A DNA stretch of 41,066 nt. It comes from a virus. The stretch's first letter is position 1. Each line of letters opens with the position of its first letter. A program made the translations under genes and the position numbers. The notes under the pieces are model-generated. The model searched no databases. It was given only the letters and a program-made list of their open reading frames with translations, and was not told the origin of the DNA. This document shows, piece by piece, positions 1 through 36,942 of this stretch. The stretch lies in IMG/VR virus record IMGVR_UViG_3300050190_000059, positions 64,001 to 105,066 of that record; one strand, 5' to 3'.

Positions 1-562
1 ACGAAGGAATTACAGAGGCCACGCCGCTCGTTGTTGTAACAATGGTGCCGAGAGACGTCGCACTTCCACCATTGGTCCCGAAGGACGCGTCGAAACCGCC
101 CGCGTTTGCAGGAGGCCCGGAGAATACAGTCAGAGCGGGTTCTGCCGCCCATCCGAGAACCAACGGCCCCGGGAGAGTGACTGTCTGCGTTGGGGGAGTA
201 AGTTCCGGTGGGACGTTCAGTGTGATTTGATCTGAGTCACTACCACCGCCTGAACCGGACCCGCCAGAGCTAGTACCGCCGCCAGCCTTAGTAACCACGG
301 AGGCGCTCTTCGTTGCCGCGTTCACTGACGCAACAGCCGCAGGAGGAGGTGGCATCAATGAGAAATTTGGAATACGGTGCGAACCAGTTGCGGTGCTTAC
401 AAAGCTAGTGTCGTGCTGCAACCCCGGGGCGATTGAGCCTACAAAGAGTGGCGGCGAATCGTGGGGAAGAGGCGCAGACGGGCCAGCGGCAGGTAACGGG
501 GACTCCGCTGGTTCCCAGTTGTCCGGAACCTCTCCCTCTTTAATCAGGTTGTTGTTTGCCAT
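1..562 (-). CDS. Tail/fibre-region protein, N-terminal part (runs off window)
   Basis: An open frame of 187 codons starts at ATG 562-560 and reaches the window edge without a stop, so the C-terminus is missing. It overlaps the stop of the upstream gene as TAATG, a usual sign of translational coupling in this block. The visible part is rich in Pro, Gly and Ser: a Pro-rich N-terminus, a PPPP run, a long Gly/Ser linker, then a beta-rich stretch of Thr/Val/Pro. This fits a virion or tail-associated protein, but I recognise no named domain. Function is inferred only from its position after the nozzle-like gene. Confidence 0.75.
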   Translation of the reverse strand, partial: MANNNLIKEGEVPDNWEPAESPLPAAGPSAPLPHDSPPLFVGSIAPGLQHDTSFVSTATGSHRIPNFSLMPPPPAAVASVNAATKSASVVTKAGGGTSSGGSGSGGGSDSDQITLNVPPELTPPTQTVTLPGPLVLGWAAEPALTVFSGPPANAGGFDASFGTNGGSATSLGTIVTTTSGVASVIPS

Positions 563-14210: not shown

Positions 14211-14909
14211 CTATACGCTGGCGTTATAGCTTGCGACAGGGTCCGATTGTCCGAGAGCCTCTTGGTCTTCGATGTCAACGTAACGCGTAGCGTTGCGCTT
14301 CTCCCAAAGACTGCGGAAGTATCTCGCGGAGATTACGTTCGGCGATGGTACGCCGAAGATTTTGTGGCACTGCTCTTCTGTGATAATCTCTTTCTCAACT
14401 AACTGAACTGCAACCGTGCGCCAGCCTCGGAAGGCCTCGCCGTTCGGGATGCCGTGGGCGTCCAACTTCAACACGGACCACTCGTACATCGCCGGAACTT
14501 GAATGAAACAGACATAGCGGAGTTTATCGTGGCGGTACGGCGGGGTCGCCCAAAGACCGAGGGTGCCTCTCAAACCGTTGTCCATCACGATTGCCTTGAT
14601 TCCGCCTTCTTTCAACTTCGCCATAAAATCGATAGTGGAGATCGGATTGATCTTGCGCGCGACCTCGTTGGTCAACTGCTCCTGATCGTCCCACTTGTAC
14701 GCCGCTGCCATCTTGTTCGAGATTTCTTTCTCAGCGGCGAACGACTCTCTCGCAAACTCTTTATACTCTTCTGGGTGCGAAACCCACTTGGGCGTCCCGC
14801 CCGCGAGCATCTTTTGAATGCTCTCTTGCGTAGCGTTCACATCGTGGTGCTCATTGTACGGCTCTGCGTCGATACCCTTGATGAACGGCTGATCTGGCTG
14901 ATGAATCAT
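14211..14909 (-). CDS. Unknown protein of the head block
   Basis: 232 residues, soluble, charged. Recognisable stretches include an N-terminal polar region, DNGLRGTLGLWATPP about the middle, and a helical C-terminus with ARYFRSLWEKRNATRY. I do not recognise the family and see no signal, membrane or catalytic motif. AAGGAAA lies before the ATG, which overlaps the stop of the GIY-YIG gene as ATGA. Before that gene inserted, it probably followed the capsid gene directly. Confidence 0.7.
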   Translation of the reverse strand: MIHQPDQPFIKGIDAEPYNEHHDVNATQESIQKMLAGGTPKWVSHPEEYKEFARESFAAEKEISNKMAAAYKWDDQEQLTNEVARKINPISTIDFMAKLKEGGIKAIVMDNGLRGTLGLWATPPYRHDKLRYVCFIQVPAMYEWSVLKLDAHGIPNGEAFRGWRTVAVQLVEKEIITEEQCHKIFGVPSPNVISARYFRSLWEKRNATRYVDIEDQEALGQSDPVASYNASV

Positions 14910-15505
14910 TGTTTTCCTTCGCGACGACGCTGTTGGGCGAGCCGCATTCTTTGTTTCGTTTCTTCTGAAAGTTTCTTGCCTAAATGTGACTGACGCATTC
15001 GTTCTCTTGCTTCGTCGCTACGCTTTGCACCAACGTGGGCAGCCATCAATTTCTCGTGATTCTCTTTGGTCATCTTTCTGCCGAGAGCGTACTTATTTCC
15101 CATACTACGCTCGGATAATTTCTGGCGATGGCTCTCCGGCATTACCAAACCAGTTCTTGACTCGGACATCTTAGCACGAGTCTCGGCGCTCATCTTGACG
15201 CCGAGAGAGCCGTATCCGCCGTGTGTGATGTTATATCCTTTTTCGGGATTCGTGGTATCCCACATCCTGATTAAGGCAATCTCGTAATAGTCCATCTCTT
15301 GCTTCGTACCGACGATAACAAGAGTTTTAACGTCAAAACCATCTAAGCCGTATTTACGAATGGCTCTGTACAGGGCGCGCTTACCTTGATAGCCTGACTC
15401 GGCTAACCAGACATTTCTGTCCCAATAAACTTTAAGATCATCACCAGCGTGTTGACCAACATACATTTTTCCGTTTGCTTTGTTCGTTATTAAATAAACT
15501 ATCAT
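14906..15505 (-). CDS. GIY-YIG homing endonuclease with NUMOD3 repeats
   Basis: 199 residues. The GIY-YIG catalytic fold is at the N-terminus (VYL at 3-5, YVG at 15-17, a conserved Arg in ALYRAIRKYG, and a Glu in MDYYEIALI). From about residue 105 there are several NUMOD3 DNA-binding motifs (SAETRAKMSESRTG, MPESHRQKLSERS, MTKENHEKLMAAH, SDEARERMRQSHLGKKLSEET). This is the standard build of free-standing phage homing endonucleases (Seg type). It sits alone between the capsid gene and an unknown gene, with its own promoter and a 5' leader hairpin, consistent with a mobile insertion. Confidence 0.93.
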   Translation of the reverse strand: MIVYLITNKANGKMYVGQHAGDDLKVYWDRNVWLAESGYQGKRALYRAIRKYGLDGFDVKTLVIVGTKQEMDYYEIALIRMWDTTNPEKGYNITHGGYGSLGVKMSAETRAKMSESRTGLVMPESHRQKLSERSMGNKYALGRKMTKENHEKLMAAHVGAKRSDEARERMRQSHLGKKLSEETKQRMRLAQQRRREGKQ

Positions 15506-25433: not shown

Positions 25434-26063
25434 TTAACTCATCAAACTATCGTGTGTGGTGCTCTCGTTCAATAAAGCCGCTGCGTAATAACTGCCAGAG
25501 GGACGCTTGTAAACTCCGACGACGCCGCCCGGGCTAACCTTAACCGCGTTGTGGTCGTGGTGAAACAAGTGGCTCACTTCGTGAATCGTTGAACTGTGGG
25601 CGAAGACAATCGATGGGCGGCCTGAACGCTCACCCTCCGCGAGTGCCATCTTAATCTCTGGGTCCGTTCTTTCGCGGAAATCGTTGATGCGTTCCCCGCC
25701 CGGAATCTTCTGCTCCGGATACTTCTGGTAGTGGGTAATTTCTTTCATGTTCTCGTCGGTCTTTTTCTGACCGGAGAACTTGCCGACATTCAGCGCGTCG
25801 AAGTTCTTAACGACCTTGGCTTTGTGTGGACCTAATACTAGATCGGCGGTCTCGCGCGTGCGGTCCTTGCTGCTGCGAAACGCCGCGCCGAGTTGCTGGT
25901 CGCCGAGGTGGCTCGCCAAGAACCCGCGAACGTCCAAAGCCTGCTGGCGGCCTGTGCTGTCGAGAGGAACTTCCATCTGGCCGCGAAAACGCTTTTCCTT
26001 ATTCATCTCCGTCTGGCCGTGGCGGACGAAGAGCGCGACAAGTTTAGGGGCTTGTTCGGTCAT
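25434..26063 (-). CDS. Histidine phosphatase (phosphoglycerate mutase-like) superfamily protein
   Basis: 209 residues. The catalytic RHG motif is at 14-16 (VRHGQTEMN), followed by RFRGQMEVPLDSTGRQQA, the Arg in SSKDRTRETA (about 64-71), Glu in GGERINDF (about 124) and the second catalytic His in VFAHSSTIHE (about 156). All active-site residues of branch 1 are present, so it should dephosphorylate a small substrate or phosphoprotein; the substrate is not known. It follows the stop of a small gene by two bases. Such genes recur in environmental phages as possible auxiliary metabolic genes. Confidence 0.88.
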   Translation of the reverse strand: MTEQAPKLVALFVRHGQTEMNKEKRFRGQMEVPLDSTGRQQALDVRGFLASHLGDQQLGAAFRSSKDRTRETADLVLGPHKAKVVKNFDALNVGKFSGQKKTDENMKEITHYQKYPEQKIPGGERINDFRERTDPEIKMALAEGERSGRPSIVFAHSSTIHEVSHLFHHDHNAVKVSPGGVVGVYKRPSGSYYAAALLNESTTHDSLMS

Positions 26064-27320: not shown

Positions 27321-28247
27321 TTAACTTGCTGACCTAATGTTTGATGAGTTAGGCAACGATGCTGGTAAGTTCGTATCTGTAGCATCTACGAGAGGCGCGC
27401 GAACGTAGTCAGCTTGACGGTAAACATGCACACCAGTCGGGTCTGATGCTATGACTGTAAAGCTGCCGATGCCAGTCGGAGCTACGAAGTTATAGTTCCC
27501 TGCGGCATCGCTGGTCGTGAATCGAGGCCACGATGAGTCAGCACTGTTGTAACGATGAGGCACAAGCTGGAGTAATATGCCCGGAAAAACAACATTTCCA
27601 AAGATGTTGACAAATCCTGCGGGGGCGGGCTGTAATTCTGACGGGGCCGTGATTGCGGTTGCCGCCGAGATTGTGACCGCGCCTGATGACGTAACCACGC
27701 CAGCGAACGCGCGACCGTTCAAAATTCCGCCGCCAAGTGTGATGCTTGTGTTGGCGAGAATGTTGCCGACCATTGTGGACGTTGCGACGGTCGTGAGAGA
27801 ACTTCCGACCAGCCAGTAAACGTTGGCGGCAGTAGCCCCGTTGGTCAAAGTTATCGCCTGACCGGAAGCCAAGTTGATTGTGGACGAACCTTTGAAAACG
27901 TAGACGCCCGCGCCGTTCAGGACGAGGCCGAGACTGCACGTGGCTGCGCCGAAACTGTAGTTGCCCGGTGTGACCACGTTGCTGCCGGAGAAAGCAGTTG
28001 ACAAGTCGAGCGCGCCACCCAAGGACGTGAACGTCAAGGCCGATAGCGCGTTGTAAAGTACCAACGCATCGGTGAGTGCGCCTTGTGCGTCAGCGTTATC
28101 TTGAGATGCTTGACCCGGAGGAAAGCCTGTGATCGACGTAGTTGGAAACGAGCCGATGACGCCGCCACTGATGACGGAACCTCCGGTGTTGGTAATGCCC
28201 GCCGCAGCAAGTACGGCGTAAGCGGAACTACGTCCGAAGTTTGCCAT
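27321..28247 (-). CDS. DUF3494 (ice-binding-type) protein with C-terminal CNA-B-like domain
   Basis: 308 residues. About 8-205 form a DUF3494 domain (AAGITNTGGSVISGGVIGSFP, NGATAANVYWLVGSS, ILANTSITLGGGILNGRAF, GAVTISAATAI). About 210-308 look like a carboxypeptidase-regulatory or CNA-B beta-sandwich (GNVVFPGILLQLVP, SDAAGNYNFVAPTGIGSFTV). No signal peptide, so unlike secreted bacterial ice-binding proteins it is probably built into the virion. It lies five bases after the sister gene. Confidence 0.88.
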   Translation of the reverse strand: MANFGRSSAYAVLAAAGITNTGGSVISGGVIGSFPTTSITGFPPGQASQDNADAQGALTDALVLYNALSALTFTSLGGALDLSTAFSGSNVVTPGNYSFGAATCSLGLVLNGAGVYVFKGSSTINLASGQAITLTNGATAANVYWLVGSSLTTVATSTMVGNILANTSITLGGGILNGRAFAGVVTSSGAVTISAATAITAPSELQPAPAGFVNIFGNVVFPGILLQLVPHRYNSADSSWPRFTTSDAAGNYNFVAPTGIGSFTVIASDPTGVHVYRQADYVRAPLVDATDTNLPASLPNSSNIRSAS

Positions 28248-28252
28248 GTTCG

Positions 28253-29305
28253 TTAAGACCCGTGAGCTACGAGAACGTAGTCAAGCCAATAAGAAATGTT
28301 CCCACCGATGTTGATGACCTGAATGATGTCTTCCTGCGCCGGATTGTTGGTCCAAGTGTCGAGTGACAACGCAGCTAGGGTTGCTGATGAATTTAGTCTG
28401 GTGAAGTACTGGCCTAGACGGACTCCGTTGGTTGGAGCGACTGCTGGGTAGTGAACCACCCCAGCGTTGTCTACGTTCAAAAGAACTACGCCGCCAAAAT
28501 CCACAATCTGAATCAGGTCCAAGAACTGCTTGGTGCCGTTGTTACCCGTGACTTGCGGCCACGCGGTGAGAACCGACGAGCCTAGGTTACGAGAGATGAG
28601 GCAGTTTTGTGAAGGAGCAGTGGTGCCGCCTGCTGTGGGAACTGTGATAGTTTCTGCGGCAGCGATTGTGATCGCACCGCTTGAGGTAAACAGTCCAGCG
28701 AGCGCGCGACCGTTGAGGGTGCCGCCGCCGAGGGTGATAGACGTGTCAGCGAGGATGTTGCCCTGAGTAAGCGCGCCGGGTCCGATGCTCGTCCACGAAC
28801 TACCGACAACCCAGATGACGTTGTTAGCTTGCGCACCGTTGATAAGATTAATAGTTCCGGCGATGGCTTGGGTAATGGTAGAAGCGGTGGCGTAGAAAAT
28901 GAAGAGGGCGTTCGAGTTTCCTTGTGCGTCGAGGGTGACTGCGGTGGTGATAGCGATTGAACTAGGGCTGACGTACGCGCCTGCATACCAAGTCCCGTTT
29001 GGAGCACCCGCGCTATGCTGGGTGCCGGACGCGCCGATATCTGCGGTCGTGATAGCGATACCCGCTGCGCCTAATGCCTTGTAAAACAAGTAGGCCGCGT
29101 GACCGTCGGTCTGCGCCTGTGATGCGTTGCCGTTATCAATGGCTGCGGGGGAAACAAAGTTCGCGCCCGTGAACCCTGTCTGGGTTGCTGTCGGGAAGGA
29201 CCCGACGTTACCGCCCGCGATTAGAGTTGCACCAGTATTCGTTTCGCCAGCAGCCGCGAGTAACGCATAATTCGCAGCGGTCAAAAGTTGTGAATTCACC
29301 GACAT
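28253..29305 (-). CDS. DUF3494 (ice-binding-type) protein with fibre-like C-terminus
   Basis: 350 residues. DUF3494 domain at about 10-225: AGETNTGATLIAGGNVGSFP, NSNALFIFY, NGAQANNVIWVVGSS, ILADTSITLGGGTLNGRAL, GAITIAAAETI. The C-terminal part (about 230-350) is a beta domain with two similar segments, KQFLDLIQIVDFGGVVLLNV and EDIIQVINIGGNISYWLDY. No signal peptide. It is the first of two adjacent DUF3494 genes, and its domain is closest to that in the large nozzle-like protein. A structural/adhesion role is inferred. Confidence 0.88.
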   Translation of the reverse strand: MSVNSQLLTAANYALLAAAGETNTGATLIAGGNVGSFPTATQTGFTGANFVSPAAIDNGNASQAQTDGHAAYLFYKALGAAGIAITTADIGASGTQHSAGAPNGTWYAGAYVSPSSIAITTAVTLDAQGNSNALFIFYATASTITQAIAGTINLINGAQANNVIWVVGSSWTSIGPGALTQGNILADTSITLGGGTLNGRALAGLFTSSGAITIAAAETITVPTAGGTTAPSQNCLISRNLGSSVLTAWPQVTGNNGTKQFLDLIQIVDFGGVVLLNVDNAGVVHYPAVAPTNGVRLGQYFTRLNSSATLAALSLDTWTNNPAQEDIIQVINIGGNISYWLDYVLVAHGS

Positions 29306-29485: not shown

Positions 29486-29517
29486 TGTGGTTCCCCTTTT
29501 ATTCTATCTTAAATTGG

Positions 29518-29589
29518 CTGCCCAAAAAGGACTCGAACCTTTATGCGCGGCTTCAGAGACCGCTATCCTACCGATTAGATGATCGGGCA
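29518..29589 (-). tRNA. tRNA-Gln(CTG)
   Basis: Cloverleaf with acceptor TGCCCGA/TTGGGCA, T-loop TTCGAGT, anticodon loop CTCTGAA, discriminator G and encoded CCA (to 29515). It is the last tRNA of the array in transcription order. Confidence 0.93.
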
Positions 29590-29596
29590 GTTGAAA

Positions 29597-30052
29597 TTAT
29601 GTGAATGACGCCATCAAGTTCTGGCTCTTAACGTACCACACGCCTTGATAAGCGTAGAACGTAAAACTCGAACCCGGGTGCGCGCCGAACGTGGCCGTCG
29701 TGACTCCCGCTGCGCCGGAGCGCAACGTGCCGCCTGAGAAAGTGCCTGTGTGTGAAGCCGATGACCCGTTCGTGATTGTGATTATCACGCCATCGTCTGT
29801 GGTGACCGTTGGTGCTGCGATGGTCATTGAGTCCACGCCAGCGGTCGTGACTATGTAGGTCGCCGAGACGTGCGGATTGATTGCATCCGTGCCACCAGAA
29901 AGTACAACAGGAATCTGAGAACTAGAATTCGCGAGCACGAAAGCTGTCGTCGCAATCTGCGTCGTGTTGGTTCCGGGTACGGCTGTCGGCGCGGTCGGAA
30001 CACCAGTGAATGCTGGTGAGGAGAGCGAGGCACCGTTTATAATTGTGCTCAT
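29597..30052 (-). CDS. Beta-rich phage structural protein
   Basis: 151 residues. The N-terminus SSPAFTGVPTAPTAVPGTNTTQIATTAFV is the SPxFTGxPTAPTA...GTNTxQIATTAFV motif found at the start or within many phage tail-fibre proteins. The C-terminus is a beta domain with a turn GSSFTFYAYQGVWYVKSQN typical of fibre heads. The motif is recognisable; receptor binding is inferred. It follows the 104-residue gene by three bases. Confidence 0.8.
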   Translation of the reverse strand: MSTIINGASLSSPAFTGVPTAPTAVPGTNTTQIATTAFVLANSSSQIPVVLSGGTDAINPHVSATYIVTTAGVDSMTIAAPTVTTDDGVIITITNGSSASHTGTFSGGTLRSGAAGVTTATFGAHPGSSFTFYAYQGVWYVKSQNLMASFT

Positions 30053-30055
30053 GGC

Positions 30056-30370
30056 TTACTCCTGCTTGTAATAAATTTCGCCGCTAACCTGCACGGCGGC
30101 GGAACTGTTGATAATAAAATTCGCGGGAGTAGCAAACCACAACATGGTGTTGGTCTCGTCTAGAACAATCGCGCCACCCGCCGACATCGGCAGAGCACCT
30201 GAAAACAACAGACCATTGCCATCTTTGAATGTCAGGTTAGTCGCGCCACCGACAACCAAATACAGGCCGACAACCTCTATCTCTTTTGCCGCAACGGCTG
30301 ATATGATGACGTTGTCGCCGGACCCAGAAAAGTTTATCGGGGTGTTTCTGATCTGACTGTTGTTTGACAT
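30056..30370 (-). CDS. Small beta-rich virion-region protein
   Basis: 104 residues, ending in VSGEIYYKQE. Hydrophobic beta pattern (IEVVGLYLVVGGATNLTFKDGNGLLFSG), no Cys, no membrane span. It lies three bases before the next gene (29597-30052) and just after tRNA-Gln(TTG). Many tail or capsid accessory proteins look like this. I cannot name a family. Confidence 0.65.
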   Translation of the reverse strand: MSNNSQIRNTPINFSGSGDNVIISAVAAKEIEVVGLYLVVGGATNLTFKDGNGLLFSGALPMSAGGAIVLDETNTMLWFATPANFIINSSAAVQVSGEIYYKQE

Positions 30371-30393
30371 GCCTATCCCTATACGAAGTTGGT

Positions 30394-30464
30394 TGGAGGA
30401 GCAGGATTCGAACCTACACAGACTGATTCAAAGTCAGCCGTGCTACCAGTTACACTATCGTCCA
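30394..30464 (-). tRNA. tRNA-Gln(TTG)
   Basis: Anticodon loop CTTTGAA on stem GCTGA/TCAGT, T-loop TTCGAAT, discriminator A, encoded CCA at 30391-30393. One C-C mismatch in the acceptor stem. Confidence 0.92.
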
Positions 30465-30472
30465 ACAGAAAA

Positions 30473-30664
30473 TTAAGTTTGTTTCTCGGGGTCCAAAGGC
30501 CCCTTCAAAATACCTTTTTGAATCATGCCCTCTGGCGTGTACGTATTCGGGTCGAAATGATTCTCGTGATGCAACAAAAAGTCCGGCTTCACCGACTCAC
30601 CTTTGGACGGCGGGAGGGCGGCATCCTTTCGCGCGGTGCGCGCTACCTTGTAATCGTTCGGCAT
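30473..30664 (-). CDS. Small LLHH-motif protein
   Basis: 63 residues beginning MPNDYKVARTARKD and containing VKPDFLLHHENHFDPN. The gene at 38761-38991 begins MPDDYALVRGERA and has LTPDYLLHHQNTFDKN, so the two are paralogues. Polar and probably soluble. Function unknown. Placed between tRNA-Gln(TTG) and tRNA-Phe. Confidence 0.65.
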   Translation of the reverse strand: MPNDYKVARTARKDAALPPSKGESVKPDFLLHHENHFDPNTYTPEGMIQKGILKGPLDPEKQT

Positions 30665-30672
30665 AAGATTGG

Positions 30673-30743
30673 TCCTAAGTCGTGGAGTCGAACCACGTCG
30701 ACACCGTTTTCAGCGGTGGATGCAACCGTTACATCTACAAAGG
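30673..30743 (-). tRNA. tRNA-Phe(GAA)
   Basis: Anticodon loop CTGAAAA on stem CACCG/CGGTG, T-arm CGTGG/CCACG, discriminator A and encoded CCA. The acceptor stem has two T-T mismatches, so the 5' end may be off by a base. Confidence 0.85.
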
Positions 30744-30842
30744 ATGTCGCCCCAATTTTATACTGTTAGCGACGGTGCTCAGTCCCCATCTAAGGGTGTG
30801 TCTACAACACGCGGCATTTCAGCCAGCGGACGTAGAATATGG

Positions 30843-30926
30843 CGGATAGCCAAGGAGTCGAACCCTGTCACGCGTGAGCGTGTCTCTGTTTTCAAGACAG
30901 TTAAGCACCGTTGCTAGCTGCCATCC
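30843..30926 (-). tRNA. tRNA-Ser(TGA)
   Basis: Class II tRNA: long variable arm with ACACGC/GCGTG pairing, anticodon loop CTTGAAA, acceptor GGATGGC/GCTATCC, discriminator G, encoded CCA. Confidence 0.92.
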
Positions 30927-30948
30927 GTAAAATGTGGTCGTGAACACC

Positions 30949-31137
30949 CTACTCTTTATGGGGCTGTTCTTTGTTCTGCCGACCAGCAGAGTCTTGACCG
31001 AGACTAGAATCGTCTCGGTAATCTTTATCAGGAACGGCGACGCCCCAATTCTTAGTGGGGTCGATCAGCCCGTTCACAACCATGTTCTCGTAACCTTGCT
31101 CGCGGGACTGTTCCATCGTGGAACCTACCTCTGACAT
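30949..31137 (-). CDS. Small polar protein of unknown function
   Basis: 62 residues, hydrophilic, no Cys, beginning MSEVGSTMEQSREQGYEN and ending in a charged Gln/Lys-rich tail. GGGAGG lies a few bases before the ATG, so translation is likely. It sits between two tRNA-Ser genes. Family not recognised. Confidence 0.55.
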   Translation of the reverse strand: MSEVGSTMEQSREQGYENMVVNGLIDPTKNWGVAVPDKDYRDDSSLGQDSAGRQNKEQPHKE

Positions 31138-31155
31138 GGTGCCTCCCGAAAATGG

Positions 31156-31240
31156 CGGATGATGTGAGATTCGAACTCACTCGCGCTTTCACGCGCTGGT
31201 TTAGCAAACCAGTACGACACTCCGGCTTCGCCGACCATCC
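31156..31240 (-). tRNA. tRNA-Ser(GCT)
   Basis: Class II, variable arm GCGCG-TGAAAG-CGCG, anticodon loop TTGCTAA on stem CTGGT/ACCAG, acceptor GGATGGT/ATCATCC, discriminator G, encoded CCA. Confidence 0.93.
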
Positions 31241-31250
31241 GTAAAATTGG

Positions 31251-31322
31251 CATGAGAGGATGGACTCGAACCACCGTAGTCGGGTTTGGAGTCCGACGTC
31301 CTAGCCGCTGAACGACTCTCAT
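31251..31322 (-). tRNA. tRNA-Trp(CCA)
   Basis: Anticodon loop CTCCAAA, acceptor ATGAGAG/CTCTCAT, discriminator G, encoded CCA. The last pair of the anticodon stem (31-39) is an A-C mismatch. Confidence 0.92.
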
Positions 31323-31332
31323 GTAGAAAACT

Positions 31333-31418
31333 TTCGCTTAGTGGGATTCGAACCCACACGCGGACACGATGGACGTATGCTGTCTAGGTCAGCACGTGCG
31401 GACTATGCCGCCTTCGTA
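31333..31418 (-). pseudogene. Degenerate class II tRNA-like element with CTA triplet
   Basis: T-arm GTGGG/CCCAC with TTCGAAT and an anticodon-like hairpin TGCTG-ACCTAGA-CAGCA are intact, but the expected acceptor strands do not pair, there is no CCA, and position 33 is C. The triplet CTA would read the amber codon UAG. Probably a decayed Leu-type tRNA. Confidence 0.45.
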
Positions 31419-31470
31419 TCTACCTCGTACTAGATGCGCCTTGCCGTTCGGCGTCATAAGTCGAAACTGG

Positions 31471-31555
31471 TGGATAGTGAACGACTCGAACGTTCGAAGC
31501 CCACAAGGGGCATCTGGTTTACAGCCAGAGGCAATTGCCGCTATGCGAACCATCC
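31471..31555 (-). tRNA. tRNA-Tyr(GTA)
   Basis: Class II with variable arm GCCC-CTTGT-GGGC, anticodon loop CTGTAAA on stem TCTGG/CCAGA, acceptor GGATGGT/ACTATCC, discriminator A, encoded CCA. Confidence 0.93.
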
Positions 31556-31590
31556 ATAAAGTGTCCCGTCGAGTTAACGACGGGGGATAA

Positions 31591-31806
31591 TTAAGCTGCT
31601 GGTGCTGCCGGGGCCGCTGGTGCGGCTGGTGCCAACGCTGCTACGACGGTTGCGTCGAGTGCGTCTACCATTGTTGCGTCCGCTGCGTCCTTCACTGCGA
31701 CGGCTGCGGATACGGCTGATGCTACTGCCGCTGCGGAACCGTTGTCCGCCGCGATCAAGTTTGCTACGTCGACTTGCAACTTTGCGATGCTATCTGCGAA
31801 TGCCAT
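31591..31806 (-). CDS. Ala-rich small protein
   Basis: 71 residues from ATG 31806 (GGGAG seven bases upstream); a longer form starting 18 codons earlier lacks such a site. A helical N-terminus (ADSIAKLQVDVANLIAAD) is followed by an Ala/Val-rich stretch and an APAAP tail. It could be a small coiled-coil or linker protein. No function assigned. Lies between tRNA-Tyr and tRNA-Thr(CGT). Confidence 0.5.
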   Translation of the reverse strand: MAFADSIAKLQVDVANLIAADNGSAAAVASAVSAAVAVKDAADATMVDALDATVVAALAPAAPAAPAAPAA

Positions 31807-31889
31807 CAGTATCTCCCTTAGCTCGTAAGTAGTATTTAGTCGTGCTATTCTGTTCTTCATTGGGCCTCTCTTCGAGGATTTGAAACTGG

Positions 31890-31960
31890 AGCAGAGTCTC
31901 TGGATTGAACAGAGGCTTCGACCTTACGAGGGGCGCGTCATGCCACTAGACCAACCCTGC
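31890..31960 (-). tRNA. tRNA-Thr(CGT)
   Basis: Acceptor GCAGGGT/ACTCTGC, discriminator T, encoded CCA, anticodon loop CTCGTAA. The stem CGCCC/GGTCG has one mismatch. T-loop TTCAATC. Confidence 0.85.
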
Positions 31961-31971
31961 TCTGAAAATGG

Positions 31972-32042
31972 AGCGACGTACCGTAATCGAAACGGTGCCT
32001 GAATCTTGGCAAGATTCCGTGCTACCACTATACCAACATCGC
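31972..32042 (-). tRNA. tRNA-Gly(GCC)
   Basis: Acceptor GCGATGT/ACGTCGC, anticodon loop TTGCCAA on stem GAATC/GATTC, discriminator T, encoded CCA. Confidence 0.94.
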
Positions 32043-32054
32043 TCAGAAACTTGG

Positions 32055-32125
32055 AGCCGAGTGACTTAATCGAAAAGTCGCCTGTGAGGTACAAGCTCAC
32101 CGTTCTACCACTAAACTAACCGGGC
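32055..32125 (-). tRNA. tRNA-Thr(TGT)
   Basis: Anticodon loop CTTGTAC on stem GTGAG/CTCAC, acceptor GCCCGGT/ACTCGGC with one C-C mismatch, discriminator T, encoded CCA. Confidence 0.92.
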
Positions 32126-32136
32126 TTTGAAACTGG

Positions 32137-32207
32137 AGCTTCGTGTTGGTACTGACCCAACGCTTCACCCTTACCAAGGGCGCGGACTACCTTTATCCGA
32201 ACAAAGC
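32137..32207 (-). tRNA. tRNA-Thr(GGT)
   Basis: Acceptor GCTTTGT/ACGAAGC, anticodon loop TTGGTAA on stem CGCCC/GGGTG, discriminator T, encoded CCA. The T-loop region (TCAGTAC) is unusual, lacking TTC. Confidence 0.88.
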
Positions 32208-32216
32208 ATAAATTGG

Positions 32217-32289
32217 AGCGAAGCAGGCGATTCGAACGCCCTCGTTCTGCTTGGAAGGCAGACATGCTAGCCGTTAACATCAGCCTCGC
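32217..32289 (-). tRNA. tRNA-Gly(TCC)
   Basis: Acceptor GCGAGGC/GCTTCGC, anticodon loop CTTCCAA on stem TCTGC/GCAGA, T-loop TTCGAAT, discriminator T, encoded CCA. Confidence 0.94.
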
Positions 32290-32300
32290 TTTGAACTTGG

Positions 32301-32385
32301 TTGCGCAGGTGGGAGTCGAACCCACGAGTCCCTTTCGGGATGAGGCTTATGAGACCTCTGACATCGGCCACTAGTCGACCGCGCA
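32301..32385 (-). tRNA. Class II tRNA with CAT anticodon (identity uncertain)
   Basis: Acceptor TGCGCGG/CTGCGCA, T-arm GTGGG/CCCAC, encoded CCA, anticodon loop CTCATAA on stem GAGGT/GCCTC. It carries a 16-base variable arm with stem TCCC-GAAA-GGGA, normal only for Leu, Ser and Tyr tRNAs. Discriminator A. A Leu-type tRNA whose CAA anticodon became CAT would look like this. Confidence 0.85.
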
Positions 32386-32396
32386 ATTGAAATTGG

Positions 32397-32467
32397 TATC
32401 TAACCGTGGATTCGAACCACGATAACGCCCCTATCAAGGGCGAGTCCTACCGTTGGACGAGTCAGAT
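32397..32467 (-). tRNA. tRNA-Ile(GAT)
   Basis: Acceptor ATCTGAC/GTTAGAT, anticodon loop TTGATAG on stem CGCCC/GGGCG, T-loop TTCGAAT, discriminator A, encoded CCA. Confidence 0.93.
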
Positions 32468-32472
32468 ATTGG

Positions 32473-32544
32473 TGGACGGTGGCGGATTCGGACCCCCACT
32501 TCATCGGTGCAAGCGACGCGTGCTCCCATTAACACTAACTGCCC
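32473..32544 (-). tRNA. tRNA-Ala(TGC)
   Basis: Anticodon loop CTTGCAC on stem CGTCG/CGATG, acceptor GGGCAGT/ACCGTCC with one mismatch, T-loop TCCGAAT, discriminator A, encoded CCA. Confidence 0.87.
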
Positions 32545-32557
32545 ACTGTAAAATTGG

Positions 32558-32628
32558 TACCGCTACAGGGACTCAAACCCTGTCTACGAGGTTGAAAGCC
32601 TCGTTGCCTATCCATAGCAGATAGCGGC
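32558..32628 (-). tRNA. tRNA-Glu(TTC)
   Basis: Acceptor GCCGCTA/TAGCGGT, anticodon loop CTTTCAA on stem CGAGG/CCTCG, discriminator A, encoded CCA. Confidence 0.93.
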
Positions 32629-32641
32629 ATTGAAAATTTGG

Positions 32642-32712
32642 CACGGCTGCGGAGAATCGAACTCCGGCCACGCGCCTGAGAAGCGCATGTTCTGCCACTA
32701 AACTACAACCGC
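32642..32712 (-). tRNA. tRNA-Glu(CTC)
   Basis: Acceptor GCGGTTG/CAGCCGT, anticodon loop TTCTCAG, T-loop TTCGATT, discriminator G, encoded CCA. Confidence 0.92.
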
Positions 32713-32721
32713 ACTGAAAAT

Positions 32722-32765
32722 TGGCGGGTCCCACCGAACCGAAGTCCGTATTTTCCCCATTGAAA
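32722..32765 (-). pseudogene. Possible tRNA 3'-end remnant
   Basis: About 44 bases between two tRNAs, ending on the minus strand in GGTTCGGTGGGACCCGCCA, like the T-arm and CCA end of a tRNA, with the rest missing. Too short to be a tRNA. Confidence 0.3.
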
Positions 32766-32770
32766 ATTGG

Positions 32771-32843
32771 TAGGCAATAAGAGAATCGAACTCTTCCGCT
32801 CTGGGTGTAGGCCAGATGTATACGACCAGTTTACTAATCGCCT
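32771..32843 (-). tRNA. tRNA-Val(TAC) with C at position 33
   Basis: Acceptor AGGCGAT/ATTGCCT, anticodon stem TCTGG/CCAGA, loop CCTACAC. The normally invariant U33 is C. Discriminator A, encoded CCA. Its 5' end overlaps the stop codon (TAG) of the HNH gene. Confidence 0.87.
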
Positions 32844-33252
32844 ATCTATCCAATCGAGACTCCCTACAATAGTGCGCTAATCCTGTCCAGCGACCCCTAT
32901 CTACTGTAAAGTTTTCAATTGGTTCAAACTTTTTACATCCAACGCACCACGACATACCGTCTGGTGCAATCTTACGCTTGGCGACGCCGCCATGAAACGT
33001 GTGCGGCTTATTACATCTCATGTGAGAGAACGCCACATTATCTAAATCCCAAAACAAGTCAGCGGAGAGACCTTCCCACGGCTTGACGTGCTCAATGCTT
33101 AATTCGTCGATGTTCTCTATTTTCTCGCTGCATCGAACACAGACATTGTCGTCGTACTTCGCAAGTTGACGAAACAAGACCATCTTACGAAGCCTGCTGC
33201 ACGCTGCGCCGTGAGACATACCTAAAGTTTCTACTGCCCGTTTGTTTGACAT
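32842..33252 (-). CDS. HNH homing endonuclease (first copy)
   Basis: 136 residues. Zinc-binding CVRC, the HNH core (SIEHVKPWEGL...DNVAFSHMRCNKPH) and a second Cys pair (CVGCKKF) in the C-terminal part; the N-terminus has LGMSHGAACSRLRK. The gene at 34496-34924 is a clear paralogue along its whole length. It lies 41 bases after the CCA of tRNA-Lys(CTT) and its stop overlaps tRNA-Val, so it is an insertion in the tRNA array. Its Shine-Dalgarno AAGGA sits in a hairpin loop (33260-33272). Confidence 0.9.
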   Translation of the reverse strand: MSNKRAVETLGMSHGAACSRLRKMVLFRQLAKYDDNVCVRCSEKIENIDELSIEHVKPWEGLSADLFWDLDNVAFSHMRCNKPHTFHGGVAKRKIAPDGMSWCVGCKKFEPIENFTVDRGRWTGLAHYCRESRLDR

Positions 33253-33259
33253 AATCGTT

Positions 33260-33272
33260 GGTCTCCTTGACC
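33260..33272 (-). promoter_or_regulatory. Hairpin presenting the Shine-Dalgarno of the first HNH gene
   Basis: Minus-strand GGTC-AAGGA-GACC; the loop is the Shine-Dalgarno, seven bases before ATG 33252. The second HNH gene has the same structure with the stem bases swapped. Confidence 0.65.
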
Positions 33273-33296
33273 GTTGATTGATGTGCAGAAAATTGG

Positions 33297-33369
33297 TGGA
33301 CCCAGAAGGAATCGAACCTTCATCCCTCGCTTTAAGAGAGCGGTACTCTAGCCATTGAGCTACGAGTCC
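33297..33369 (-). tRNA. tRNA-Lys(CTT)
   Basis: Acceptor GGACTCG/TGGGTCC, anticodon loop CTCTTAA on stem CGCT/AGCG, T-loop TTCGATT, discriminator A, encoded CCA. Confidence 0.92.
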
Positions 33370-33380
33370 ATAAAACTTGG

Positions 33381-33452
33381 TGCGCCGCCCGAGGCTCGAA
33401 CTCGGACATTGGGCTTAAAAGGCCCCATTGCTGCCGCTCGCATCCGCAGCGC
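33381..33452 (-). tRNA. tRNA-Lys(TTT)
   Basis: Acceptor GCGCTGC/GCGGCGC, anticodon loop CTTTTAA, T-loop TTCGAGC, discriminator A, encoded CCA. First tRNA after the RNase P RNA in transcription order. Confidence 0.92.
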
Positions 33453-33470
33453 ATATTTAATAAAAGTGCC

Positions 33471-33493
33471 ATATTTACACATGCTGTAAATAT
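33471..33493 (-). terminator. AT-rich hairpin after the RNase P RNA
   Basis: Minus-strand ATATTTACA-GCATG-TGTAAATAT, nine perfect pairs, then GGCACTTTTATT. It may terminate, or mark processing of, the RNase P transcript. Confidence 0.5.
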
Positions 33494-33500
33494 TGAATCT

Positions 33501-33803
33501 TGGTCGCGCGATACCCCGGCTTCTGTCGAGGACGAACATTCCTCTAAGCCTGCTACCCGACTCTCATCGCGCTCAACAAGCGCTCAAGTCCTATTTGCAG
33601 TTGCACCCGTGTGGAGTACCTTCGCTCGAATGGCGAGTAGTTTGCTTATCAGGCAAACAACTCAGCACGAAGCCTTACCCGTACGCTTGCGCGTCCCGCA
33701 ACTTCCACGGCACGATGTTGAGATGTGGCCGGAAGTTCCTCGACCTACGGGGAGGCTGTCGCCTGATTCCCGAAATGGCAGGCCGCGTTCGTCTACGCTA
33801 CCA
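33501..33803 (-). ncRNA. rnpB: RNase P RNA (bacterial A-type-like), phage-encoded
   Basis: About 303 bases. In order on the minus strand: P1 5' strand TGGTAGCGT (pairs with GCGCGACCA at the 3' end); P2 GACGAAC/GTTCGTC; the conserved GAGGAACTTCCGGCC; a P12-like hairpin ACGC-GCAA-GCGT; GGTAAGG; P13-like GTTTGC/AGCAAAC; P14-like CTCG/CGAG; GGTACTCCACACGGGTGCAA; TGCAAATAGG; GGGTAGCAGGCTTAGAGGAATG; and GACAGAAGCCGGGGTATCG. These match the conserved blocks of bacterial RNase P RNA (E. coli M1: GAGGAAAGUCCGGGC, GGUAAGG, CAAAUAGG, ACAGAACCCGGCUUA). P4 changes are compensatory and the bulged U is kept. It is shorter than M1 (377 nt), mainly in the P7-P11 part. It lies between tRNA-Cys and tRNA-Lys(TTT). 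Established role: the catalytic RNA removing tRNA 5' leaders; here presumably with host RnpA. Confidence 0.93.
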
Positions 33804-33830
33804 AAAATTAAAACCGATTTTCGTTATCGG
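33804..33830 (-). terminator. Terminator-like hairpin just before the RNase P RNA
   Basis: Minus-strand CCGAT-AACGAAA-ATCGG followed by TTTTAATTTTT, the last T's adjoining the RNase P 5' end. It may lower read-through from tRNA-Cys or help set the 5' end. Confidence 0.5.
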
Positions 33831-33900
33831 GAGTAAACGGTTCGATTTAATCAACCTAGCTGCTAGCACATGGACTGGTTGACGAACCGACGAAACTTGG

Positions 33901-33971
33901 ACCACCGTGTAGGAGTCGAACCTACGGTTGCCGTTTTGCAGGCGGCTGACTTGCCACTTGTCGAACGGTGG
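33901..33971 (-). tRNA. tRNA-Cys(GCA)
   Basis: Acceptor CCACCGT/ACGGTGG (perfect), anticodon loop CTGCAAA, C-A mismatch at 31-39, discriminator T (expected for Cys), encoded CCA. Confidence 0.93.
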
Positions 33972-33985
33972 AAACTTTAGTAGAC

Positions 33986-34051
33986 ACCCTACCGCTGTCG
34001 TCGCAACCCTGTCTTTATGCCTTTATGGACGGGGCGGCTATTTCGATAGGT
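33986..34051 (-). ncRNA. Unexplained long hairpin in tRNA array
   Basis: Minus strand: nested pairings ACCTA/TAGGGT, CCGC/GCGG and CCCGTC/GACAGGG around a loop of about 14 bases. It fills a 90-base gap between tRNA-Cys and tRNA-Leu(TAA) that has no ORF. No T-arm consensus, so not a tRNA. Confidence 0.3.
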
Positions 34052-34061
34052 ACAAGATTGG

Positions 34062-34142
34062 TAGGCATGGAGGGAGTCGGACCCTCAAGCATTTCTGCGG
34101 TGCGTTTTAAGTGCACTGCGTTTGCCCTTTCGCCACACGCCT
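34062..34142 (-). tRNA. tRNA-Leu(TAA)
   Basis: Class II: variable arm GCA-GAAA-TGC, anticodon loop CTTAAAA, acceptor AGGCGTG/CATGCCT, discriminator A, encoded CCA. A-C mismatch at 31-39. Confidence 0.92.
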
Positions 34143-34150
34143 AAACTTGG

Positions 34151-34236
34151 TTGTCGACGATGGTGTCGAACCATCCTGCAAGCCTGATCTAGGCCAAGGG
34201 TTTATAAGACCCTGCCGCGAGCCGTCGCAGTCGACA
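34151..34236 (-). tRNA. Class II tRNA with TAT anticodon (identity uncertain)
   Basis: Perfect acceptor TGTCGAC/GTCGACA, anticodon loop CTTATAA on stem AGGGT/ACCCT, T-loop TTCGACA, discriminator A, encoded CCA. A long variable arm (GCCT-AGATC-AGGC) is wrong for tRNA-Ile. The D-arm is short (GCGA-CGGC-TCGC). A Leu-type tRNA with TAA changed to TAT fits. Confidence 0.85.
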
Positions 34237-34248
34237 ATTGAAACTTGG

Positions 34249-34332
34249 TCGCCAACCAGAGACTCGAACTCTGACGCCCTTTCGGGCACCGGGTTTTGAA
34301 TCCGGCGTGTCTGCCAATTCCACCAGCAGGCG
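34249..34332 (-). tRNA. tRNA-Leu(CAA)
   Basis: Class II with variable arm GCCC-GAAA-GGGC, anticodon loop TTCAAAA, A-C mismatch at 31-39, acceptor CGCCTGC/GTTGGCG, discriminator A, encoded CCA. Confidence 0.92.
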
Positions 34333-34342
34333 ATAAACTTGG

Positions 34343-34414
34343 AGGACCGCTTCGGACTTGCACCGAAATTTCGTGGTTCGTAGCCACGCGACGTGTCTAT
34401 TGGTCTAACAGTCC
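34343..34414 (-). tRNA. tRNA-Arg(ACG)
   Basis: Anticodon loop CTACGAA on stem CGTGG/CCACG, acceptor GGACTGT/GCGGTCC, T-loop TGCAAGT, discriminator T, encoded CCA. Confidence 0.91.
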
Positions 34415-34422
34415 AAAACTGG

Positions 34423-34494
34423 AGCACCCACTCGGATTCCAACCGAGGTCATCACGGTAGAAACGTGAGGTCCTGTGCGCTGAACGACAGGTGC
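34423..34494 (-). tRNA. tRNA-Arg(TCT)
   Basis: Anticodon loop TTTCTAC on stem TCACG/CGTGA, acceptor GCACCTG/TGGGTGC, T-loop TTGGAAT, discriminator T, encoded CCA. The second HNH gene ends two bases from its 5' end. Confidence 0.91.
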
Positions 34495-34495
34495 A

Positions 34496-34924
34496 TTATC
34501 TATTTTCGTGCTTCGTTTCCTTGCAATACTTTTGCAAGCCATTATTTCTCGAAGCATCTTTCCAAAAATTTTCAACGGGTTCGGCTTTCTTACAACCTGA
34601 ACACCATGCCATTCCTGCTTCAACATCTACTTTATTATGTCCGCCACCGGGATATGAGTGCGGGCGGTTGCACGTGATGTGCGAAAAAGCGATGTTGTCG
34701 ATGTTCCAGAACAGTTCAGAAGATTTATTCTCCCACGGTTCCTTGTGCTCGATACTTACATCATCGGCTTTAAAAATTGCTTCACCACATTTAAAACAGT
34801 AATTCTCATTCAGGCGAACTAGAAAGTGAAACAATAGATGCTTTCTCAAACGGCCAACTGCCGCACCGTGAGACATTCCCAGTTGCGCCGCTCTACGAGC
34901 AGCCTTTGCTTCGTCATGTCGCAT
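34496..34924 (-). CDS. HNH homing endonuclease (second copy)
   Basis: 142 residues, paralogous to the 32842-33252 gene: LGMSHGAAVGRLRKHLLF, zinc pair CFKC, HNH core SIEHKEPWENK...DNIAFSHITCNRPHS, second pair CSGCKKAEPVENF. It starts 37 bases after the CCA of tRNA-Leu(TAG) and ends one base from the 5' end of tRNA-Arg(TCT), the same boundaries as the first copy. The Shine-Dalgarno GAGGA lies in a hairpin loop (34929-34941). Confidence 0.9.
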   Translation of the reverse strand: MRHDEAKAARRAAQLGMSHGAAVGRLRKHLLFHFLVRLNENYCFKCGEAIFKADDVSIEHKEPWENKSSELFWNIDNIAFSHITCNRPHSYPGGGHNKVDVEAGMAWCSGCKKAEPVENFWKDASRNNGLQKYCKETKHENR

Positions 34925-34928
34925 CGTT

Positions 34929-34941
34929 GACCTCCTCGGTC
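34929..34941 (-). promoter_or_regulatory. Hairpin presenting the Shine-Dalgarno of the second HNH gene
   Basis: Minus-strand GACC-GAGGA-GGTC before ATG 34924. Compared with the first copy (GGTC/GACC) the stem is swapped but still pairs. Confidence 0.65.
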
Positions 34942-34964
34942 GTTGACACGTTCTTTTAAATTGG

Positions 34965-35046
34965 TACCCCGCATAGGATTCGAACCTACACGCCTTGCGG
35001 CATCCGGGTCTAAGCCGGAAGCGTCTCCCAATTCCGCCAACAGGGC
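34965..35046 (-). tRNA. tRNA-Leu(TAG)
   Basis: Class II with variable arm GCC-GCAA-GGC, anticodon loop CTTAGAC on stem TCCGG/CCGGA, acceptor GCCCTGT/GCGGGGT, discriminator A, encoded CCA. Confidence 0.93.
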
Positions 35047-35114
35047 ACAGAAACTCGGGTGGTATTTAATCAACGCGCGCCACCTGATCGCGCTTTGGGT
35101 GATTTTTAATCACC

Positions 35115-35182
35115 GAGAGTACTAACCCCTCAACCAGTGCACGAGGCCGCGTATGGGAGCTACCCATCTGCGTTTGACTCTC
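35115..35182 (-). ncRNA. Unexplained three-way-junction RNA in tRNA array
   Basis: Minus strand: GAGAGT and ACTCTC close two hairpins, ATGGG-TAGCT-CCCAT and CCTC-(11 bases)-GAGG. A further hairpin GGTGATT/AATCACC (35098-35114) follows. Fills most of a 157-base gap without ORF. Not a tRNA. Confidence 0.3.
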
Positions 35183-35206
35183 TGTTGCAACTTCGTATAA
35201 AATTGG

Positions 35207-35278
35207 CTGAGGCCAAAGGATTCGAACCTTCATCGTAGGCATTAACAGTGCCCCGTCTTACCGTTAGACGAAACCTCA
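35207..35278 (-). tRNA. tRNA-Asn(GTT)
   Basis: Anticodon loop CTGTTAA on stem GGGCA/TGCCT, acceptor TGAGGTT/GGCCTCA, discriminator G, encoded CCA. Confidence 0.93.
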
Positions 35279-35293
35279 GTAGAAAATTTGGGC

Positions 35294-35384
35294 CTCTCGA
35301 AGTCAACAGACTTGGCTTCTCACCAAGCGACCCTTGTTGACCGCCTCACGTTTGTCCGGCACGGACAGTGCCCCGTGATTAGAG
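35294..35384 (-). ncRNA. Unexplained structured RNA in tRNA array
   Basis: Plus-strand coordinates: CTCT 35294-35297 pairs AGAG 35381-35384; GTCAACA 35302-35308 pairs TGTTGAC 35335-35341 enclosing CTTGG/CCAAG; CACG/CGTG encloses TGTCCG/CGGACA. A compact junction of about 90 bases, tRNA-sized but without a T-arm consensus. Confidence 0.35.
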
Positions 35385-35389
35385 ATTGG

Positions 35390-35465
35390 TCGGGAAAACA
35401 GGATTCGAACCTGTGCTCTCTTCATTCCGAATGAAGCGGGAACAACCAGACTTCCCTACTTCCCG
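35390..35465 (-). tRNA. tRNA-Pro(CGG)
   Basis: Anticodon loop TTCGGAA on stem CTTCA/TGAAG, acceptor CGGGAAG/TTTCCCG, T-loop TTCGAAT, discriminator A, encoded CCA. Confidence 0.93.
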
Positions 35466-35476
35466 ATAAAAATTGG

Positions 35477-35547
35477 CGCGGGTACCGGGAATCGAACCCG
35501 GCCTACCACAGTGACAGTGTGGCGTCATGCCGACAGACCCTACCTGC
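35477..35547 (-). tRNA. tRNA-Asp(GTC)
   Basis: Anticodon loop CTGTCAC on stem CCACA/TGTGG, acceptor GCAGGTA/TACCCGC (one mismatch), T-loop TTCGATT, discriminator G, encoded CCA. Confidence 0.93.
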
Positions 35548-35560
35548 GTCGTAAACTTGG

Positions 35561-35631
35561 TCGAAAGTGCTGGAGTCGAACCAACGCCACATGCTTCCAA
35601 AGCACGCATGCTACCGTAACACTTACTCTCG
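35561..35631 (-). tRNA. tRNA-Pro(TGG)
   Basis: Anticodon loop TTTGGAA on stem CGTGC/GCATG, acceptor CGAGAGT/ACTTTCG, T-loop TTCGACT, discriminator A, encoded CCA. Confidence 0.92.
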
Positions 35632-35636
35632 ACAAA

Positions 35637-35706
35637 AATGTTAAGACTGACGGGATTCGAACCCGCGACCTTCCGGCTATGCCGGACGCTCTACCACTGA
35701 GCTACA
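35637..35706 (-). tRNA. Degenerate tRNA-Met(CAT)-like gene
   Basis: Canonical D-arm (GCTC-AGTGGTA-GAGC), T-arm with TTCGAAT and paired acceptor GAGGCTG/CAGTCTT. The anticodon stem TCCGG/CCGGA encloses only five bases (CATAG), as if positions 32-33 were lost from a Met tRNA, and the 3' end reads ACA instead of CCA. May be inactive. Confidence 0.6.
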
Positions 35707-35784
35707 GCCTCGGATGTCTGACATGGGATTCTATCCCTGTGCTCGCTTGCGCAAGCTAGCCATCCATCTTGCAAGACTAAACTT

Positions 35785-36138
35785 TTACTTCTTAACTGCC
35801 TTCAACTTGCGCATCAAAAGCAAGTTGTGAATATTTACTCCGGTCAAACCAGCCGCTGGAACCCAGAAAACGAAGGAACCAAGGGTGTTGTAAAAACCGT
35901 GATGCGCTAACACCATCGCGAGGAACCCGGTGCCGATCAACTTCGCGCCACCGAACAAGAACGCACCGAACGCGCTCTTCAAAAGAAAATCAGATACCTT
36001 TTTCGGAAGATGCTTGTAAAGAGGATTCTCTTCCACGAAGCCGTCGACCGTGATGCCGTAGCACGTTATGACCGAATCAAGTCCCGCCGTGAAACCGCAA
36101 GCAAGTGCGCTTAATGCATAAATTACGTCGACGCTCAT
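35785..36138 (-). CDS. Small integral membrane protein
   Basis: 117 residues, with three or four hydrophobic segments (about 5-27, 55-75, 85-105), a short polar loop with EENPLYKHLPKK and a basic C-terminus (MRKLKAVKK). The NPLY motif in a polytopic small protein recalls the DUF5658 group, but this is not certain. First protein gene downstream of 36157-36459; its product would be in the host inner membrane. Confidence 0.65.
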   Translation of the reverse strand: MSVDVIYALSALACGFTAGLDSVITCYGITVDGFVEENPLYKHLPKKVSDFLLKSAFGAFLFGGAKLIGTGFLAMVLAHHGFYNTLGSFVFWVPAAGLTGVNIHNLLLMRKLKAVKK

Positions 36139-36156
36139 CCTTTCTCCGTACTGCGA

Positions 36157-36459
36157 TTAGTTAGTAGCCAACGCGAACAACTCTTCTGCGCTCTCTTTTG
36201 GCCGAGTCACGTGAATAGGTCCGTTTGTGATCTCGGACACCACGTACGCGGAGGTAAGGGCCGCCGATGTTAGATGCTGGGCACGCTCTTGAAAGCGGGC
36301 AACAACCTCTTCGGTGCTCTCCTCCACGACCTCGATCTCCGGTTCGGGCGTCGGGATGGCTAACTCCCTGCTACGGTCGAAGGCGGCCATGATGCGACCA
36401 CGTGTATCTGAAAGACCTTTGCCGCTTAAGATTGGCGCGCCGTTGCTTGAGTATTCCAT
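36157..36459 (-). CDS. Small protein of unknown function
   Basis: 100 residues, acidic middle (EPEIEVVEESTEEVVARFQERAQ), mostly helical. AAAGGAA lies before the ATG. The sigma70-type promoter at 36490-36519 lies 31 bases upstream, so this is a promoter-proximal, probably early, gene. Family not recognised. Confidence 0.65.
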   Translation of the reverse strand: MEYSSNGAPILSGKGLSDTRGRIMAAFDRSRELAIPTPEPEIEVVEESTEEVVARFQERAQHLTSAALTSAYVVSEITNGPIHVTRPKESAEELFALATN

Positions 36460-36489
36460 TTTGTTCCTTTCGAGTACCAGACTGAAACC

Positions 36490-36519
36490 ATCTTAGCACA
36501 ACGGGGAACAACTTGTCAA
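36490..36519 (-). promoter_or_regulatory. Sigma70-type promoter of the 36157-36459 gene
   Basis: Minus-strand TTGACA at 36519-36514, 18-base spacer, TAAGAT at 36495-36490 (5 of 6). The next 90 bases upstream, to 36605, contain no gene. Confidence 0.8.
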
Positions 36520-36605
36520 GCACTATTTTCAACTTTCTTTGGCCCCCATGATTTATGACCTTTGGGTGTTAGTAGCCGGAACGGTCAAGCGGCTCTGCCA
36601 AAACT

Positions 36606-36848
36606 TTACTCGTCGCTGCGCTGCGGCTGGGCTGGTGATGCCTCGCCCTTAACGGAGCCGTCCTTGCTCAAGCCCATGCTATTCGACTTACCCTCTGCTA
36701 GGGCTGATGCGTCTTGAGATGCCTCAACTACCTTAGAGGTTGCCGGAAGCGGGCGGCCCGGGTAGCTACGTGCCTGCGATGGCTCGTCGCCGTATACTTT
36801 CTCAGGCGGGAATGCTTTGGATGCTACCGTTGTGTTTTCCTTCGACAT
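36606..36848 (-). CDS. Small disordered protein with YPGRPLP motif
   Basis: 80 residues, polar, Ser/Ala-rich, probably disordered. It shares YPGR-x-LP and a following Ala/Glu-rich segment with the 115-residue gene at 37216-37563, which suggests a distant family link. AAGAGA precedes the ATG. Function unknown. Confidence 0.55.
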   Translation of the reverse strand: MSKENTTVASKAFPPEKVYGDEPSQARSYPGRPLPATSKVVEASQDASALAEGKSNSMGLSKDGSVKGEASPAQPQRSDE

Positions 36849-36870
36849 GATGTTCTCTTAAAAATTTTGG

Positions 36871-36942
36871 GGTGACCACTTGGATTCGAACCAAGCCTGA
36901 GAGATTCACAGTCTCCCGTGCTAACCGCTACACCACAGCCAC
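36871..36942 (-). tRNA. tRNA-His(GTG)
   Basis: Anticodon loop CTGTGAA on stem GGAGA/TCTCT, acceptor GTGGCTG/TGGTCAC, discriminator C (His identity), encoded CCA. The base before the acceptor is C, so the usual G-1 is not encoded. First tRNA after the promoter at 36954-36982. Confidence 0.92.

Follow-up and report, generated by a model that had tools for sequence, protein, structure and literature searches.

DUF3494 domains as a probable mobile surface module of podovirus particles, inserted in the tail nozzle and carried by two adjacent accessory genes

The DNA examined here is a window of 41,066 nucleotides that forms the end part (positions 64001–105066) of the 105-kb IMG/VR virus record IMGVR_UViG_3300050190_000059. 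Within this window, two open reading frames lie next to each other on the minus strand with 5 bp between them. P1 (27321–28247; 308 aa) is comprised of a DUF3494 domain (residues ~4–200; 27648–28238, as delimited by an in-house HMM and the Pfam boundaries) and a carboxypeptidase-regulatory-like C-terminal module (27324–27617). P2 (28253–29305; 350 aa) consists of a DUF3494 domain (residues ~6–223; 28637–29290, based upon profile boundaries and structure comparison) and a C-terminal module of a second type (28256–28612). All of these features are on the minus strand, and the two C-terminal parts are unrelated to each other by sequence comparison, in agreement with the original prediction, which had been made from the sequence alone. 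The two genes are located between packaging genes and a gene for a protein with a tail-fibre motif (29597–30052, minus strand; phrog_454 tail fiber protein, E 1.1e-10), which adjoins P2. A gene of the histidine phosphatase superfamily (25434–26063) adjoins the packaging genes, and elsewhere in the window a homing-endonuclease-like gene (14906–15505; phrog_314) neighbours the putative major capsid gene. The region 29515–36942 is densely packed with 31 predicted tRNAs and a tmRNA gene (33294–33591; tag AADASGSNGAF), which is overlapped by one tRNA-Lys prediction.

Both ORFs had been predicted to hold a full DUF3494 domain, and this is borne out by their scores against the PF11999 profile, which are far above its gathering score (the curated Pfam cut-off) of 28.7 bits. 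P1 matches positions 1–204 of the 208 profile positions with 91.7 bits (E 6.7e-26) and P2 matches positions 2–203 with 102.8 bits (E 2.6e-29); in 14 control genomes the same profile had zero matches. Sequence matches to solved ice-binding proteins in the PDB were also observed for both proteins. In the AlphaFold2 model of P2, the first 220 residues mostly have pLDDT values above 90 and a helix (residues 61–80) lies beside the solenoid strands, corresponding to the discontinuous beta-solenoid and long alpha-helix of DUF3494. The best structural match of this model is AnpIBP (7bwy), with a Z-score of 30.5 and an rmsd of 1.6 Å over 199 aligned residues, and it superposes on about 25 other DUF3494 structures with Z-scores of 27–30. 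Structure prediction, which had been proposed as a check on the solenoid fold, thus confirms it for P2, while the fold of P1 and of the nozzle copy described below is assigned by sequence. A similar beta-solenoid is present in the Thermus pilin ComZ (6qvi; Z 13.3 to the P2 model, 11% identity), a pilus protein that presumably has no role connected with ice, as it comes from a thermophile.

A search of the whole record revealed a third DUF3494 domain, which is absent from the original prediction. This domain (3985–4614, minus strand; PF11999 101.9 bits, E 5e-29) is part of a 1437 aa protein (562–4875, minus strand), where it lies between ...NRLTLMRRPGS and SAVYPTPPDRAF... as one block of ~225 extra residues, exactly the DUF3494 domain, near the N-terminus. 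The orthologues of this protein in Tunturi_3 (gp19) and in the genomes G018 and G007 all run across the insertion site without DUF3494 (3/3), and the G002 protein is 99% identical to it. A scan of IMG/VR identified 58 distinct full-length homologues (771–1812 aa), of which six, including the near-identical G002 copy, contain DUF3494. A second insertion site, near residue 1295 of P0001, is common to L099, L152, and L158.

Neither a PDB sequence search nor a PHROGs scan yielded a nozzle match for the 1437 aa protein, and hence a compact homologue of 815 aa (L116) was folded with 38 sequences (pLDDT 73.8, pTM 0.72). The top 30 PDB matches of this model in Foldseek were all podovirus-type tail proteins, mostly nozzles, and they included T7 gp12, the SU10 nozzle, and P22 gp10, with an E-value of 4.9e-14 to podovirus tail chains. 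In the comparisons with these matches the whole-chain rmsd was large and the TM-scores were mostly 0.3–0.5, which indicates that the domains are alike and that their arrangement is not closely reproduced. Based upon this model, the 1437 aa protein is taken to be a podovirus tail nozzle of the T7 gp12/SU10 type. Its family shares the core of these known nozzles, from which it differs in the 225-residue DUF3494 insert near the N-terminus (near the C-terminus in other homologues). The annotation of Tunturi_3 gp19 (L004, 18182–21592) as a head decoration protein is probably wrong, since the family folds as a nozzle. The phage is a podovirus with a T7/SU10-type nozzle and an SU10-type portal, and the Acidobacteriota phage Tunturi_3 is a distant relative. 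The gene next to that for the nozzle (4875–6020, minus strand) encodes an adaptor-like structural protein, named so from gene order alone, which has an insert other than DUF3494.

The same domain recurs in several other classes of structural proteins. In G007, whose nozzle is without DUF3494, the domain is found between the conserved ends of the neighbouring adaptor-like protein, and in L013 and L014 it lies within a large protein of the baseplate (Baseplate_J in L013, of which the L014 protein is a close homologue). Six tail sheath proteins (L018–L021, L075, and L076; sheath assignment by phrog_279 for the two that were scanned) carry a circularly permuted form in which profile positions 37–206, the C-terminal part of the solenoid, precede the N-terminal part. 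DUF3494 was also observed together with Ig (He_PIG), fn3, and DUF2793 tail-fibre domains. A profile scan of IMG/VR, with relatives sampled through short peptide patterns, gave 201 encoding stretches; 80 loci were retained and 89 distinct DUF3494 proteins, including eight from bacteria, were examined. Large contigs contain up to six copies. In a tree of the domains the nozzle copies are scattered, requiring six label changes, at least five of which are forced by well-supported branches, and the domain of one small standalone protein is 72–73% identical to the nozzle copies of L162 and L155. Such a pattern is the behaviour of a domain that moves among virion genes. In tblastn searches of 50,697 phage records, P1, P2, and two of their relatives gave no DUF3494 match, and the sole match of the nozzle protein was Tunturi_3, which itself lacks the domain. 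As the same domain sits in nozzle, baseplate, and sheath proteins, the idea that P1 and P2 carry a virion-borne module now stands in a much firmer context. As standalone genes, P1 and P2 could also encode proteins that are cytoplasmic or freed at lysis.

The C-terminal modules of P1 and P2 occur in other combinations as well. Two more proteins with the P1-type module are encoded by the same phage outside the window (50219–53779 of the record), namely an 863 aa GH43-like/PASTA protein and a 324 aa protein whose counterpart in G002 has a ConA-type Laminin_G_3 domain. At the locus of P1, G002 has a 102 aa ORF that corresponds to the P1-type module alone and is followed by the same downstream sequence. 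The P2-type module is uninterrupted in some relatives and split in others by inserts, which are Ig-like or, in L009, L202, L203, and L210, DUF3494 itself; in G018 it is present without DUF3494. Neither module has a confident structure, the C-terminal domain of P2 being modelled mostly with pLDDT values below 50. From these combinations we infer a docking function for the modules, with DUF3494 as one of several exchangeable binding heads. The pairing of the P1-type module with lectin and glycosidase-like domains points to glycans.

The positions of the ice-binding site of AnpIBP (PMC7277481) were used to map the corresponding B-face in the phage domains. Ala, Gly, Ser, and Thr make up 96% of these positions in P1, 100% in P2, and 81% in the nozzle copy, compared with 74% in AnpIBP itself. 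In P1 and P2 the face is 65–67% Ser/Thr and bears no charge, and the remainder of the domain has 49% Ala/Gly/Ser/Thr and 15–19% Ser/Thr. The ice-site columns are also more conserved than the remaining columns (permutation p 0.015). Judging by this composition, binding of ice by the DUF3494 domains in the window is possible. Particles of a cold-soil phage with several such domains on nozzle, sheath, and fibres might gather at ice–water interfaces where hosts concentrate, a suggestion that we make tentatively and consider rather unlikely. In the same way, the domains might anchor or concentrate virions together with their hosts at ice–brine interfaces in frozen soil, or protect the particles from freezing. 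This is consistent with a fold that is the same as in proven ice-binding proteins, with the uncharged and conserved ice-site positions of P1 and P2, and with the origin of the nearest cultured relative from Finnish tundra soil (PMC11924767). However, bacterial DUF3494 homologues have the same B-face composition, and the face is therefore a family feature that gives no discrimination between ice and other ligands; moreover, the partners of the P1-type module are lectin and glycosidase-like domains. Ice-binding virions are thus a minority reading, to which we assign a low probability.

The phage domains resemble DUF3494/PF11999 proteins such as AnpIBP, EfcIBP, FfIBP, and SfIBP_1 in fold, length, B-face make-up, and Pfam score, but they lack a signal peptide, are part of structural or accessory proteins, and include the permuted variant of the sheath. 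Signal-peptide-like N-termini were detected in 8/8 bacterial and in two of ~78 phage DUF3494 proteins (Fisher p 8e-10), using a home-made heuristic for which one bacterial case was exactly at the threshold. No signal peptide was apparent by this heuristic in P1 and P2, as had been predicted for both, or in the nozzle protein. The two viral contigs with signal-peptide-like starts (L240 and L245) are candidates for encoding secreted auxiliary proteins, or else are misassigned contigs. These results bear upon the proposal that PF11999 genes in Central Arctic viral contigs are auxiliary metabolic genes (AMGs) for host cryoprotection (PMC11515562); no match to PF11999 was obtained for the Synechococcus phage S-SKS1, which is mentioned there in relation to homologues. 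If the genes in our window likewise guarded the infected host from freezing, this would accord with the published reading of the same Pfam family and with the starts of the L240 and L245 proteins. However, P1, P2, and the nozzle protein have no such starts, and the copies in nozzle and sheath are built into proteins of the particle. In view of the distribution of signal-peptide-like starts, a secreted role is not in keeping with the proteins of the window, and host cryoprotection, which does not fit at least this group, is highly improbable here.

Based upon these results, we propose, with a probability of about two in three, that DUF3494 functions as a mobile and exchangeable module on the surface of the virus particle, present as the nozzle insert and as the heads of P1 and P2, and that it most likely serves in low-specificity adhesion. 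One copy would be displayed from a loop of the tail nozzle, and in P1 and P2 the domain would form the N-terminal head of accessory fibre-like proteins, which their C-terminal modules probably dock to the particle. The presumably flat, Ser/Thr/Ala-rich B-face may then stick to polysaccharides of the cell surface or matrix, or to other solid surfaces, and adhesion of this kind would raise the chance of meeting a host. Among the roles originally suggested for these domains, attachment to surfaces or glycans fits best, because the C-terminal module of P1 is also found in the ConA-type lectin and in the GH43/PASTA protein. The role of a stiff spacer is a poor fit, since DUF3494 is often a side branch with both of its ends at one point, or is terminal; an end-to-end spacer within a fibre is not favoured, as side-branch insertions speak against it. 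A more general alternative is a domain without a ligand that acts as an inert spacer or has a solubility or mechanical role, and that is tolerated at any permissive loop. Insertion at many unrelated sites, presence or absence between orthologues, and the existence of a circularly permuted form could all be accommodated by such a domain. However, the retention of the Ser/Thr-rich and presumably flat face, the position of DUF3494 as a terminal head in P1 and P2, and the lectin-type heads borne by the P1-type module make an inert domain quite improbable.

The nearest precedent for the use proposed here may be the Ig-like decoration domains on structural proteins of tailed phages (Fraser et al., 2006, reviewed in PMC9022992), the likeness being of use only. 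Like these, DUF3494 is promiscuous, present or absent between orthologues, found in fibre, baseplate, and tail proteins, and would be surface-exposed; unlike them, it is a beta-solenoid of ~200 aa without an immunoglobulin fold, and it also occurs in nozzle and sheath proteins. In the open-licence literature, the coverage of which is partial so that no claim of priority is made, no paper was found that joins DUF3494 with phage or ice-binding with the tail sheath, and none of the titles seen there on ice-binding, phage, and virion suggests such a report. With its presence in several classes of structural proteins, DUF3494 would extend the set of promiscuous display modules of tailed phages by a further fold. 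A second consequence is that "ice-binding" matches in viromes should not be taken automatically for host-protecting AMGs, and the findings raise a question that is directly testable, namely whether there is a virus that binds ice.
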